A DNA stretch of 64,000 nt from an uncultured Porphyromonadaceae bacterium (GTDB lineage Bacteria; Bacteroidota; Bacteroidia; Bacteroidales; Muribaculaceae), in assembly GCA_947174235.1 (NCBI GenBank), contig CAMWID010000001.1, positions 1 through 64,000 on the forward strand, read 5' to 3'. Positions 59,327 through 64,000 of the stretch are shown one piece after another. Both the position numbers and the translations under genes were made by a program. Under the pieces are notes generated by a model that saw nothing but the letters and a program-made list of their open reading frames with translations, did not search any database and was not told the origin of the DNA. Numbering within the stretch: position 1 is the stretch's first letter; every line of letters starts with the position of its first letter.

Positions 59327-59403
59327 AACTAAGATTGTAGTTGAATTTGTTTGCATATTCAGATTAATGTCGTAACTTTGCGGTGTCAACTAAACGAATA
59401 GTT
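59327..59403 (+). promoter_or_regulatory. blaI operon promoter with two BlaI/MecI-type operators
   Basis: The promoter TTTG (59350-59353) and TAACTTTG (59373-59380), spacer 19, is bracketed by two dyads of the same form. AACTA-N6-TAGTT occurs at 59327-59342 and at 59388-59403. The core ACTA-N6-TAGT is the half-site layout of staphylococcal mec operators. The centres are 61 bp apart, about six helical turns. The second dyad covers the expected transcription start, and the first lies just upstream of the -33 box. Confidence 0.75.
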
Positions 59404-59422
59404 CAATTAAAACAGACACTAT

Positions 59423-59800
59423 ATGGCTAAACGAAATCCGGACATACAGCTCACCCCTAAAGAAGAGGAGGTGATGCAGATTCTTTGGGACAACGGTCCC
59501 ATGTTTGTAAAAGAGATCGTGGCGTTGATGCCTGATCCCAAGCCGCATATAAATACTGTTTCCACATTTGTAAGACTTCTCGAGCAGAAAGGGGCTGTCA
59601 CGCACGAGGCTCACAAAATGTCATTCAAATACAAGGCTGTGATCCAACGTGACAAGGTGAGAAAGAAATCCCTCGGGGCTCTTCTTAAAAACTATTTCAA
59701 CAACAGCGGCAAAGGGCTCGTATCCGCGCTTGTGGAAGAAGAAAAGGTTTCGGTCGATGAACTGAAAGAACTTATAAATATCATAGAATCCAAAAAGTAG
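59423..59800 (+). CDS. BlaI/MecI-family transcriptional repressor
   Basis: The product is 125 residues. The winged-helix N-terminal domain reads LTPKEEEVMQILWDNGPMFVKEIV and NTVSTFVRLLEQKGAV (residues about 10-60), and the C-terminal dimerisation helix is charged. BlaI and MecI repress an operon until a membrane M56 peptidase leads to their cleavage. Here the peptidase gene follows after 3 bases, and matching dyads flank the promoter. The protein starts 20 bases after the second dyad. The likely targets are this operon itself and perhaps others. Confidence 0.92.
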   Translation: MAKRNPDIQLTPKEEEVMQILWDNGPMFVKEIVALMPDPKPHINTVSTFVRLLEQKGAVTHEAHKMSFKYKAVIQRDKVRKKSLGALLKNYFNNSGKGLVSALVEEEKVSVDELKELINIIESKK

Positions 59801-59803
59801 CAA

Positions 59804-61003
59804 ATGGGTGATTTCTCAATATATATAATCAAGATGGCTGTGATGCTCGCATTCCTCTTCTCAGTCTACAAACTGACTGTCGGAAGGCTGAAATGCCCGG
59901 CGTTGCAAAGAGTTTTATTGCTTGCCATTTATTCTGTGAGTGTCCTCATTCCTCTTATAAAGCCGGAATGGCTTCACAGTGCCTCTCAAGAGCAGATATG
60001 GAATCTTGACCTGACAGCATTTGCCACTGGTTCCAATGGAGATTCAGCCACATACTCAGATTCAGGCATCATAGCTGACATCGTTGTCGGAATAATGGCA
60101 GGGGGCTCAATTATTGCCGCCATAATATCGCTTGCCGGGCTTTTATGGATCGCAAAATGCAGACTTGCGGGGAAATCTCTGACAATCGGTCATATTCCGG
60201 TCACTGTAGTATCCACTCCGGCAATATCCCCCTTCAGCTTCGGCGGACGCATTTACATTTCAGAGACTGATTTTGAATTACAAAATGAAATGATAATCGC
60301 TCACGAATCAAGCCATATACGCCATAAACATTATATCGATCTCCTTATCGGGAGATGCGTGGCTATCACCCAATGGTGGAATCCGCTTGCCTGGCTTATG
60401 CTTCGGGAAATTCATAATGTACATGAATACCAGGCAGACAACGACGTGATTTCCCAGGGGTACGACATGCAGGAATATCAGTACCTGCTTCTTCGTAAAG
60501 TCGCGGGACCGCGGTTCCAACACATCACAGACAATTTTAACCACAGCAAGCTTAAAGCCCGTCTGCTGATGATCAATCGCAAAGATTCGATGTTCCCGGC
60601 AAGACTGCTGTCTTTCCTATGCATTCCCGCCGCGATCGCCGGGACAATGGCTGTCAGTTCTGACCTATTTGCAGATTTCACCAAACCTCTTGCAAAGGCA
60701 TTCGAGAAAGTTCCCGGACAAATCGGGATCCCTTCCAAAATCGAAGATACTTCTCCAAACGGGTCTGCCAATCAGATTTCTTCCCATCCTATTTTAGAAA
60801 TCAATCCGGAAGATTCAGACAATACACTCACAATGACAGACACACCTGATGGTTCGCCCGACGTATTGCTCAATGGCGTTCCATTCAGTTATAAGGATCT
60901 CGACAACATAGACCCTGCAAGAATCAAAGACATATCAGTAATTAAGGATTCCGACGAGCATCCCAACGGACTGATAGTTATAAATATGAAAGAAACGGAA
61001 TAA
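59804..61003 (+). CDS. M56-family membrane metallopeptidase (BlaR1/MecR1-like, no PBP domain)
   Basis: The product is 399 residues. Membrane helices occur at about residues 5-25, 34-53, 87-113 and 267-285. The zinc site HESSH (residues 167-171) sits in the cytoplasmic loop, followed by an LLIGRCVAITQWWNPLAWLM helix and the third-ligand-like HEYQAD near 207. The C-terminal domain is about 110 residues and periplasmic. It is not a penicillin-binding domain. Instead it ends in VLLNGVPFSYKDLDNIDP and an IKDISVIKD...NGLIVI segment that resembles the plug of TonB-dependent receptors. The signal sensed is unknown. Confidence 0.9.
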   Translation: MGDFSIYIIKMAVMLAFLFSVYKLTVGRLKCPALQRVLLLAIYSVSVLIPLIKPEWLHSASQEQIWNLDLTAFATGSNGDSATYSDSGIIADIVVGIMAGGSIIAAIISLAGLLWIAKCRLAGKSLTIGHIPVTVVSTPAISPFSFGGRIYISETDFELQNEMIIAHESSHIRHKHYIDLLIGRCVAITQWWNPLAWLMLREIHNVHEYQADNDVISQGYDMQEYQYLLLRKVAGPRFQHITDNFNHSKLKARLLMINRKDSMFPARLLSFLCIPAAIAGTMAVSSDLFADFTKPLAKAFEKVPGQIGIPSKIEDTSPNGSANQISSHPILEINPEDSDNTLTMTDTPDGSPDVLLNGVPFSYKDLDNIDPARIKDISVIKDSDEHPNGLIVINMKETE

Positions 61004-61043
61004 CCGGCACGCACAACACTATCTAACCCACAATACCCAAATT

Positions 61044-61949
61044 ATGAAAAATCTATTTTTGACAGCCGCCTTGGCGGTTGTCCCGGCGGTCTATGCCCAA
61101 GACACAACCCTGTATGAATGTGTATACCAATACGACGTGAACGGCACGACTGAAAAGGGCGACCTCTCCGACACGTTCAACTGCATACTCCTGATCGGAG
61201 AAGATAGTTCTAAATTTCTTGATTACACCGCTTTCCAGCTGGATTCAGTATCCGCGATCAAAGGGATAAGCGATGACGTTTTGAAAGAATATGAGGCACG
61301 CGACCAGAAGGCTGTACCCTACTTTGACCGCCGCTTGTTCAATTCCTTATCCGACAACAAGCTAACTACCATATCTGTAATGGCTCCATTCACATACAAA
61401 TATGAAGAGGAAACTCCCCTGATAGAATGGAAACTGTCAGACGAAACGCAGACTGTATGCGGATACGAATGCAGGAAAGCCGACGGTGAATATGGCGGAA
61501 GAAAATGGACTGCATGGTATGCCGAAGAGATACCTGTGCCGTTCGGACCCTGGAAGATGACCGGACTCCCCGGGTTGGTGATGCTTGCCACTGACAGTGA
61601 CGGCATACATCGTTTCATTGTTGTCTCTTTCCGGGAAGGAAACGGTAAAATCTCGCCCGACGACATTCCCAACGTAATTAAAACCGACCATAAGAAATTT
61701 GAGGCACAGAAAGCGGAATATGACAAAAATCCTATCAACTCAATCAACCCTTCCGACATAGAAAGCATATCAATCCTTAAGGGGGAGACCAACAATATCA
61801 TAGTCAACGGCACTCTGGTCAGGAATTTTGAAAAGGGATCTATCCCTCTTGAAGTTGTCGAGACAAAAAGCGATGTCAAAAAGAATGAGCACAACAATAA
61901 TTCCAAAGACAACATCACTGTTGTCAAAACCGGATCCTTAAAAAAATAA
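61044..61949 (+). CDS. GLPGLI-family secreted protein
   Basis: The product is 301 residues with a Sec signal peptide (cleavage after VYA near residue 18). The family motif is GLPGLV in WKMTGLPGLVMLATDSDG near residue 173, preceded by the CGYECRKA and AWYAEEIPVPFGPWK segments typical of the group. The C-terminal part contains INPSDIESISILKGETNNI, similar to the IDPARIKDISVIKD stretch at the end of the M56 protein and to receptor plug sequences. It is probably periplasmic or at the outer membrane. Function unknown. Confidence 0.85.
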   Translation: MKNLFLTAALAVVPAVYAQDTTLYECVYQYDVNGTTEKGDLSDTFNCILLIGEDSSKFLDYTAFQLDSVSAIKGISDDVLKEYEARDQKAVPYFDRRLFNSLSDNKLTTISVMAPFTYKYEEETPLIEWKLSDETQTVCGYECRKADGEYGGRKWTAWYAEEIPVPFGPWKMTGLPGLVMLATDSDGIHRFIVVSFREGNGKISPDDIPNVIKTDHKKFEAQKAEYDKNPINSINPSDIESISILKGETNNIIVNGTLVRNFEKGSIPLEVVETKSDVKKNEHNNNSKDNITVVKTGSLKK

Positions 61950-61956
61950 TACCGTC

Positions 61957-64000
61957 ATGCTTACCCGTTTTCTTTATTTCATTTTGATTTCTTTCTCCCC
62001 TCTTTTGGCAAAAGGGGATACAATTCTCTCCGGCTCTGTGACAAATGATATCGGGGAACCGCTCCGGACGGTGATGGTGAAGGCAATCACAGAAGACGGG
62101 AAATCATGGCACACTAAAACCGGCAAAGACGGGAACTTCTATCTGTCGATTCCTGAAGAGTCGACACCGGCTATTATAAGTTTCAACAAATTAGGATATG
62201 AGCCGGAAAGTATCAACCTCAATGATGTTTCCGGTCCGGTTCTTATAAAACTTCACCGCACCTCCACAGTCCTGAAGGAGGTGACGGTGAAAGCTCCATC
62301 CGTCAGACTCAGGGGAGACACTGTTGTATATAATCTTGCCGATTTCGCGGGGAAAGGTGATGTCTCGCTACAGGACGCCTTGAAGAAAGTGCCCGGGGTC
62401 GAGGTCGGAAACGACGGCGGGATAAAATATAACGGCAAGAACATCTCCAACTTCTATATTAACGGCATTGATCTTTTGGGAGGGAAATACAACATCGCCA
62501 CGACAAGCATCCCTCACTCATATGTGAGCGCGGTTGAGATTCTAAATAACCATCAGAATAAAAAAATTGACCGAAGTGTCTTCTCCGACAATGTCGCCAT
62601 GAACATCCGGCTGAAGTCTAAAGCCATGTTCAAGCCTATGGGTAAATATGATGTCAAAGCAGCCACGGGCGACAGACTGATGGGGGAAGCGACAGGAGCG
62701 GGAATGATGTTCGCTGAAAAATTCCAGACTATTCTGACATTAAAAGGGGGAAATATAAATGAATTCGCAGCTTACGACAATGTGGTTCATTACTCATATG
62801 AAAACGTGAACTCAGCAAATAATTATGCGGAAAACATTCTTGGAAACCTGTCAGCCTCCACCCCGCCATTGGGAAGAAACCGCTGGATAAGACCAATTGA
62901 CACCTCAGCCACATTCAATCTGATCAACAAAATCTCCGGAGACGCCACAATACGGACAGACATCGCATATGAGTTTACCCATACCGACTACGATTATTCC
63001 GAATCGGCATCATATTTCGGAGGAGACCACGATGTGGAGATCAATACATCACGCGCACCGTCGGCAAATACCCACAAACCCTCTTTCTCTATTGAGTACA
63101 GACTTGACAGCGACCGGCGCTACATACGCAACAATCTGAAAGGGGAAGCCTCTTTCTCAGCCTACGGATTGCCCGTAAACAGCGGAAACAACCTCATATC
63201 CCAGGCTCAGGACATGAAGTCGTTCAATATTTCTGAAGATCTCGGAATCAGTTGGAAAAAAGGAAAAATAAAATGGAATGCCGCATCGTTCGTACAGTTC
63301 CGGGCAAATCCGGAAGGAAGAATCGTCGTGGCGGGAGGTGAAAACCCCGAAGCTAAAATGACACAGACAGCCCGCACTTATTCACTGCGGCTTTCCCAAG
63401 ACGTTTCCGGGGCAATGGAATACAGGAGGTCGCGGATATACTTCCCGGCAAACATATCTTTCAGCCATGACCGTATCTACACCGTATTGTCTGATCGCGG
63501 ATATGGTGATGAAAATATCAACGCGAGAAATAATCTGACAGGCAATGAACTCAGGCTTTCGTTGTCTCCAAGCTACGAATATTCCTCACGTTACAACCGT
63601 CTGGTATTACGCGCCGGAATACCATTCAGCATAAACATTCATGACAGGAAGAACATCGGAACAATTTATTCCTCCGACAATAATACTTATCTTAACCTAT
63701 CCCCTTCCGTCTACATGAACTACGACGCCTCTTCCAAATCCACATTCGGCGCCTCCGCAGCATATAAGGATTCTCACGGCGACATTCTCGATTTGCTGAC
63801 ATCTCCGGTCATGACCGATTATATGTCGATGCAACTTAAATCAGGGATAATCTCCCACAACAGGCAATTTAATTCATCTTTGCGATACAGCTTCAAATCA
63901 CCTCTGTCAATGTGGAACTTCCGCATCACAGCAGACTACACAAAAGGATGGAACAATCTTATGCCGGGGCAATATGTGACATCAGGGCTGATAGCCGTAA
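61957..64000 (+). CDS. TonB-dependent receptor-like outer-membrane protein, 3' end outside window
   Basis: The frame is open from ATG 61957 to the window end (681 codons), so it is missing from the ORF track only because no stop is seen. A signal peptide (cleavage near residue 19) is followed by a carboxypeptidase-regulatory-like beta-sandwich (SGSVTNDIGEPLRTVMVKAI, about residues 25-100) and a plug-like region (DTVVYNLADFAGKGDVSLQDALKKVPGVEV). A long barrel-type alternating-strand region with many aromatic residues follows. It lacks the SusC signature. It lies 7 bases after the GLPGLI gene and probably is the effector of the operon. Confidence 0.85.
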   Translation, partial: MLTRFLYFILISFSPLLAKGDTILSGSVTNDIGEPLRTVMVKAITEDGKSWHTKTGKDGNFYLSIPEESTPAIISFNKLGYEPESINLNDVSGPVLIKLHRTSTVLKEVTVKAPSVRLRGDTVVYNLADFAGKGDVSLQDALKKVPGVEVGNDGGIKYNGKNISNFYINGIDLLGGKYNIATTSIPHSYVSAVEILNNHQNKKIDRSVFSDNVAMNIRLKSKAMFKPMGKYDVKAATGDRLMGEATGAGMMFAEKFQTILTLKGGNINEFAAYDNVVHYSYENVNSANNYAENILGNLSASTPPLGRNRWIRPIDTSATFNLINKISGDATIRTDIAYEFTHTDYDYSESASYFGGDHDVEINTSRAPSANTHKPSFSIEYRLDSDRRYIRNNLKGEASFSAYGLPVNSGNNLISQAQDMKSFNISEDLGISWKKGKIKWNAASFVQFRANPEGRIVVAGGENPEAKMTQTARTYSLRLSQDVSGAMEYRRSRIYFPANISFSHDRIYTVLSDRGYGDENINARNNLTGNELRLSLSPSYEYSSRYNRLVLRAGIPFSINIHDRKNIGTIYSSDNNTYLNLSPSVYMNYDASSKSTFGASAAYKDSHGDILDLLTSPVMTDYMSMQLKSGIISHNRQFNSSLRYSFKSPLSMWNFRITADYTKGWNNLMPGQYVTSGLIAV

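Follow-up and report, generated by a model that had tools for sequence, protein, structure and literature searches.

A BlaI-M56 operon of an uncultured Muribaculaceae bacterium carries a plug-like element in place of the antibiotic sensor and ends in a receptor cassette

Paired genes for a BlaI repressor and an M56 membrane protease are usually annotated as regulators of beta-lactam resistance. What might such a pair do when it is followed, without a beta-lactamase, by genes for the outer membrane? The question is raised by the end of a 64,000-nucleotide stretch of DNA (the window; positions 1 to 64,000 of contig CAMWID010000001.1, assembly GCA_947174235.1) from an uncultured Porphyromonadaceae bacterium. 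Here blaI and a gene for a BlaR1-type M56 protease precede genes for a GLPGLI protein and an outer-membrane receptor-like protein, in tight order and with gaps of 3, 40 and 7 bp. The flanking genes on both sides lie on the other strand, which limits the operon to exactly four genes (Table 1). The open reading frames, gaps and family assignments given in an earlier note on this DNA were all reproduced. The operon is best read as a switch of the BlaI/BlaR1 kind in altered form, its sensor replaced and its predicted target a receptor cassette; the presence of a plug-like piece where the antibiotic sensor would be suggests an undescribed way for the outer membrane to signal to a gene switch. Sequence evidence supports the predicted operon, its putative operators, the modelled folds, the shared element and the recurrence of the arrangement; binding and cleavage of BlaI are proposed on the precedent of BlaI/BlaR1. 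No description of a BlaI-M56-GLPGLI-receptor operon turned up in a literature search, whose coverage left out most subscription journals.

Operators and repressor

Two exact copies of the palindrome AACTA-N6-TAGTT, O1 and O2, flank the promoter of the four-gene operon, the sole apparent one. They are the strongest evidence obtained and are not mentioned in the earlier note. The promoter elements, TTTG and TAACTTTG, are of the Bacteroides type. Against the two sites observed, 0.01 would be expected in the window, and no other exact copy exists in the 3.44-Mb genome. The class of site is conserved: ACTA-N6-TAGT lies at most 200 bp upstream of 37 of 49 blaI genes of the family (expected, 0.015 per 200 bp), and in the blaI promoters of relatives the operator sits at a stereotyped offset from TAnnTTTG, either 15 bp downstream or 16 bp upstream. 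At 15 bp downstream, O2 falls on one of these two offsets, which are the most frequent in related blaI promoters. At L205, a locus with the same gene order, the operators are 61 bp apart, as in the window. The palindrome also agrees with the outer positions of the CopY-family operator, the 16-mer RNYKACANNTGTMRNY (PMC7253601).

Two loci of different layout support a tie of the operator to the GLPGLI and receptor genes. L129 runs receptor-GLPGLI-blaI-M56, with the operators placed ahead of the receptor gene. L134 has a GLPGLI-receptor cassette without adjoining blaI-M56, and the one exact operator in its genome lies in the GLPGLI promoter. Together with the operators at the window's promoter and the conservation of the class upstream of relatives' blaI genes, these placements support BlaI-type control of the entire operon, which is part of the reading in the earlier note. 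The PF03965 match of the repressor extends over residues 10-122, and the protein aligns nearly full length with MecI (1sd6) and BlaI (1sd4), as well as with 1okr. By analogy with these proteins, BlaI almost certainly represses this operon.

Table 1. Coordinates of the four-gene operon and its elements, in window positions; the receptor gene runs past the window's end, to about window-equivalent 64569.
Feature	Position	Strand	Evidence or remark
Putative operator O1, AACTAAGATTGTAGTT (AACTA-N6-TAGTT)	59327..59342		exact palindrome
Bacteroides-type promoter: TTTG 59350-59353, TAACTTTG 59373-59380	59350..59380	+	read from sequence
Putative operator O2, AACTAAACGAATAGTT	59388..59403		starts 15 bp downstream of TAACTTTG start
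blaI, BlaI/MecI/CopY-family repressor, 125 aa	59423..59800	+	Pfam Penicillinase_R 2e-28
Membrane-bound zinc protease of family M56 (BlaR1-type), 399 aa	59804..61003	+	Pfam Peptidase_M56 4.6e-10; HESSH residues 167-171, E208
Plug-like beta-alpha-beta-beta mini-domain, M56 C-terminus, residues 352-396	60857..60991	+	model, Pfam Plug E 0.0018
GLPGLI protein, 301 aa, predicted secreted half-barrel	61044..61949	+	TIGR01200 7.9e-46
Plug-like tail element of GLPGLI protein, about residues 229-259	61728..61820	+	matches M56 tails in profile-profile comparison
Receptor-like protein of the outer membrane, 870 aa; CarbopepD_reg_2 and plug, barrel presumed	61957..64000, continuing to 64569	+	

The M56 protease and the element that it shares with the GLPGLI protein

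The M56 protein aligns with BlaR1 across the protease part, and its AlphaFold model matches the cryo-electron microscopy structures of BlaR1 (8exp, Foldseek E 4e-6). The HESSH zinc site described in the earlier note was confirmed, and none of H167, E168, H171 and E208 varies across 13 relatives. Since BlaR1 cuts BlaI directly (PMC9834060), the M56 protease would, by analogy, very probably relieve repression through cutting of its own BlaI.

The modelled fold appears to be that of BlaR1 minus the penicillin-binding domain. The C-terminal 114 residues comprise a linker and a mini-domain of 45 residues. Following the last transmembrane helix, residues 304-345 are predicted to be disordered; then comes the mini-domain, modelled at a predicted local distance difference test score (pLDDT) of 80-90 and the sole folded periplasmic part of the model. 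In relatives with the same operon the linker can be a few residues long or reach about 150, and the mini-domain is retained, the sole periplasmic part conserved among relatives. The tail of the window's protein matches Pfam Plug (PF07715) at 19.2 bits, under the curated cut-off of 23.9, while the M56 proteins of L012 and L009 score above it; for this reason we term the element plug-like. There are other Bacteroidales M56 proteins that pass the Plug cut-off and also match the SusC signature.

Searches of Pfam, NCBIfam and PDB sequences, and structure searches with Foldseek, led us to reject a hidden penicillin-binding or other known sensor in the C-terminus. The view of the earlier note, that this protease lacks a penicillin-binding sensor, thus held up in domain searches and in structure comparison alike, and the model of the protease showed no known sensor fold, the plug-like mini-domain standing there instead. 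Neither the window's M56 nor any of 86 from Bacteroidales carries a transpeptidase or penicillin-binding sensor. In most of the 86 there are modules otherwise seen in TonB or in TonB-dependent receptors: 58 have TonB_C and 14 score as Plug. TonB_C is more often missing at loci linked to GLPGLI-receptor genes (11/24 versus 7/41; Fisher p 0.02), a difference that is indicative only, the sample having been picked by similarity and partly by linkage.

The GLPGLI protein, which has the motif that names the family, scores 156.7 bits against the TIGR01200 cut-off of 50. Its model (pLDDT 88.8) finds as best Foldseek match the N-terminal bowl domain of PNGF-II (PNGase F-II; 3e-10), followed by VioE, RseB (2e-4) and LolA (3e-3), and the protein models as a half-barrel of the PNGF-II/LolA/RseB type. 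The group formed by the PNGF-II N-domain, VioE, RseB and LolA includes carriers or sensors of hydrophobic ligands. The tail of the protein is related to that of the protease: M56 tails and GLPGLI tails align with a profile-profile probability of 96% over 31 columns, and a profile built from relatives' M56 tails alone, the window's own being left out, picks out, among 16,247 open reading frames, SusC plugs together with the GLPGLI proteins of the window's subclade. The plug-like stretches that the earlier note had pointed out in both proteins are therefore real, and the element is common to the two tails. Among GLPGLI proteins it is common to one subclade, the one that holds the four-gene loci. 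The same M56-tail profile detected no tail element in the other four GLPGLI proteins of the genome. All five GLPGLI genes precede a receptor-type gene; the other four pairs have neither an adjacent blaI-M56 nor an exact operator.

The receptor-like protein contains CarbopepD_reg_2 and a Plug domain (24.9 bits, cut-off 23.9). Pfam gives no barrel match; a barrel would accord with the protein's length and gene family. For homology between the M56 element and the plug of this receptor the profile scores are weak, with E values of 0.75 or worse and hhalign probabilities of 6-24%.

Recurrence across Bacteroidales

The same four-gene order was found at ten loci, namely the window and L122, L123, L124, L128, L163, L205, L209, L213 and L215. 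A scan of public genomes contributed L205 (GLPGLI protein 77% identical), L209/L210 (Prevotella), and L213 and L215 (Barnesiella). The GLPGLI tree puts the window in one group with L134 and five further BlaI-M56-GLPGLI-receptor loci. When flanks of up to 6 kb are considered, BlaI or M56 flanks 14 of 80 GLPGLI loci; random placement would give, by a rough estimate, about 1%. A single origin of the receptor-linked M56 proteins was rejected, their nine rows being scattered on the M56 tree (which does not contain the window's row, and in which "unlinked" refers in many rows to 1.5-kb flanks). The GLPGLI tree, unlike the M56 tree, does group the four-gene loci.

Many GLPGLI-receptor cassettes adjoin histidine kinase/response regulator or TPR-type genes instead. 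Because linkage is sparse and scattered on the M56 tree, and because other regulators are found elsewhere, BlaI-M56 seems to be one regulator among several that these cassettes can exchange. Its linkage is specific to one GLPGLI subclade plus a few other assemblies. As most BlaI-M56 pairs are unlinked and most cassettes otherwise regulated, the circuit is a recurring assembly and no universal rule. The co-occurrence that the earlier note had suggested surveying thus holds in part: the four-gene order is present in several genera, and most BlaI-M56 pairs of the class at large stand apart from GLPGLI and receptor genes, the situation that the note had taken to speak against its proposal.

At L130, L133, L207 and similar loci the GLPGLI-receptor genes are often accompanied by a divergent histidine kinase/response regulator pair that replaces BlaI-M56. 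The periplasmic part of the L207 kinase (L207:4350-5993) contains a weak plug-like match, ISPADISSISVHKN (E 0.03-0.08), which is suggestive and was found post hoc. A general occurrence of the element in such kinases was rejected; it is absent from ten other kinases beside GLPGLI cassettes, L207 being the single case. At L102, L108 and L137 the cassettes lie behind an open reading frame of 560-590 residues with TPR repeats.

Proposed circuit, competing readings and related systems

In the circuit that we propose, a BlaI dimer would bind O1 and O2 around the promoter and keep the four genes repressed. Activated M56, a cytosolic zinc protease with a periplasmic C-terminus, would cut BlaI and thereby release the operon. 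The plug-like mini-domain would read activation in the periplasm, and the signal would most likely arrive via the GLPGLI protein that the operon itself encodes, which is modelled as a half-barrel of the RseB/LolA type and has a related tail, via the receptor, or via both. We favour, with some reserve, the view that the operon is a self-contained, autoregulated unit of proteolytic derepression for an outer-membrane receptor cassette. Going by the anatomy only, there is about an even chance that the plug-like element, together with GLPGLI or the receptor, is what reads the signal. The earlier note had proposed a proteolytic signalling circuit in which the state of the receptor or a periplasmic peptide, not an antibiotic, releases repression; BlaI control and the absence of an antibiotic sensor stood, and the proposed signal and the contacts of the plug-like parts are possible readings of the anatomy. 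The operator motif predicts the regulon of each genome, which makes the circuit directly testable. If correct, it would represent an unrecognised signalling route from the outer membrane to genes in abundant gut bacteria. More tentatively, and with the chances somewhat against it, Bacteroidales M56 proteins with TonB_C or plug-like modules might generally read the state of receptors and signal to BlaI by proteolysis. This would be a repressor-based analogue of sigma/anti-sigma signalling at the cell surface, the plug-like element acting as a shared docking code between GLPGLI and M56, and perhaps for the L207 kinase.

Several observations weigh against the proposed circuit. The scissile pair of Staphylococcus aureus BlaI, Asn101-Phe102, aligns with Ala-Leu here. 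Profile comparison does not prove a relation between the plug of the receptor and the M56 element. Among the 43 family members closest to the window's M56, just 4 have GLPGLI-receptor neighbours, and seven GLPGLI loci of the subclade (L134, L207, L208, L211, L212, L214 and L315) have no adjacent BlaI-M56. Finally, the genome contains a second BlaI-M56 pair (L005 6797-8816, contig C2), whose M56 carries TonB_C and which has no GLPGLI neighbour. Because a one-mismatch copy of the operator lies about 150 bp upstream of this pair, cross-talk is conceivable and the second BlaI could possibly also act at the operon.

The competing explanation that survives best also has BlaI-M56 control the operon. 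It would have M56 sense envelope or peptidoglycan stress, for example, via its transmembrane part or an extracellular loop; GLPGLI and receptor would be effectors only and the plug-like element would serve stability or dimerisation. Stand-alone BlaI-M56 pairs are indeed the majority, and tails are variable, 8 of 92 sampled M56 proteins having neither TonB_C nor a plug-like part. In Bacillus licheniformis a peptidoglycan fragment reportedly triggers resistance via such a system (PMC3305447). We nevertheless regard this explanation as unlikely: the TonB_C found in 58/86 proteins and the plug-like part found in others are both modules of receptor systems, and the plug-like part is the sole conserved periplasmic element in the four-gene operon and recurs in the partner GLPGLI protein.

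Much less probable is that BlaI responds directly to a ligand or metal, as CopY does, with M56 dispensable. CopY is the repressor's best NCBIfam match, and two operators per promoter, as found here, is the commonest CopY pattern (PMC7253601), but the match scores 50 against a cut-off of 122 bits, BlaI has no cysteine and hence no CXC metal site, and relatives as a rule have an adjoining M56 gene, whose zinc ligands are conserved. Least probable of all, if by a small step, is that BlaI-M56 is a mere neighbour, without functional tie, of a constitutive or otherwise regulated cassette: comparable cassettes do adjoin kinase pairs or TPR proteins elsewhere, but this is a single operon with gaps of at most 40 bp and operators at its only apparent promoter, its order is shared by ten loci, and L134 keeps operators without adjacent blaI.

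The operon's proteins belong to the BlaI and M56 families, and the likeness to BlaI-BlaR1/MecI-MecR1 of staphylococci and B. licheniformis extends to repressor family, protease fold, zinc site, adjacent genes and paired palindromic operators. Unlike in those systems, the 45-residue plug-like element replaces the penicillin-binding sensor, the controlled genes would be a receptor cassette and no beta-lactamase, and AACTA-N6-TAGTT lacks the inner CA/TG of TACA/TGTA. As the class D-like penicillin-binding domain was tested for and is absent, the operon's M56 is not a beta-lactam sensor of the BlaR1/MecR1 kind.

Receptor-linked cell-surface signalling (PMC7593790) offers a comparison in logic. As with FecI-FecR-FecA, an outer-membrane receptor cassette would report across the periplasm to the regulator of its genes, which is itself controlled by proteolysis. 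Here, by contrast, a repressor and an M56 protease take part and the operon has no extracytoplasmic function sigma/anti-sigma pair; nor is a signalling domain recognised in the receptor. The operon may work like such systems without being one of them. The GLPGLI protein resembles RseB, a periplasmic sensor in the RseA proteolysis cascade, in its modelled fold and as a periplasmic protein beside a proteolytic switch; unlike RseB, it matches the PNGF-II N-domain best, the likeness is one of fold only, and there are no RseA/DegS partners. Stand-alone M56-TonB_C proteins of Bacteroidales have the protease, the neighbouring BlaI and the operator class in common with this operon, whose M56 has no TonB_C and keeps the plug-like element alone. 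Cassettes with histidine kinase/response regulator or TPR neighbours have the same effector pair and differ in their regulator, and their GLPGLI proteins as a rule lack the plug-like tail.

A lead to the inducer in relatives may possibly come from Porphyromonas gingivalis, where a BlaI gene, the following locus tag being that of an M56 gene, appears in a list of genes expressed differently according to hemin supply (PMC10470040). At L175:5143-8547 and L160 the gene directly behind BlaI-M56 encodes another kind of outer-membrane barrel (OMP_b-brl_3), and GLPGLI is missing. Plug-like elements also occur in two small secreted proteins, of 148 residues (L211:2333-2776) and 193 residues (L235:2657-3235), the gene for the former sitting just upstream of a GLPGLI gene.

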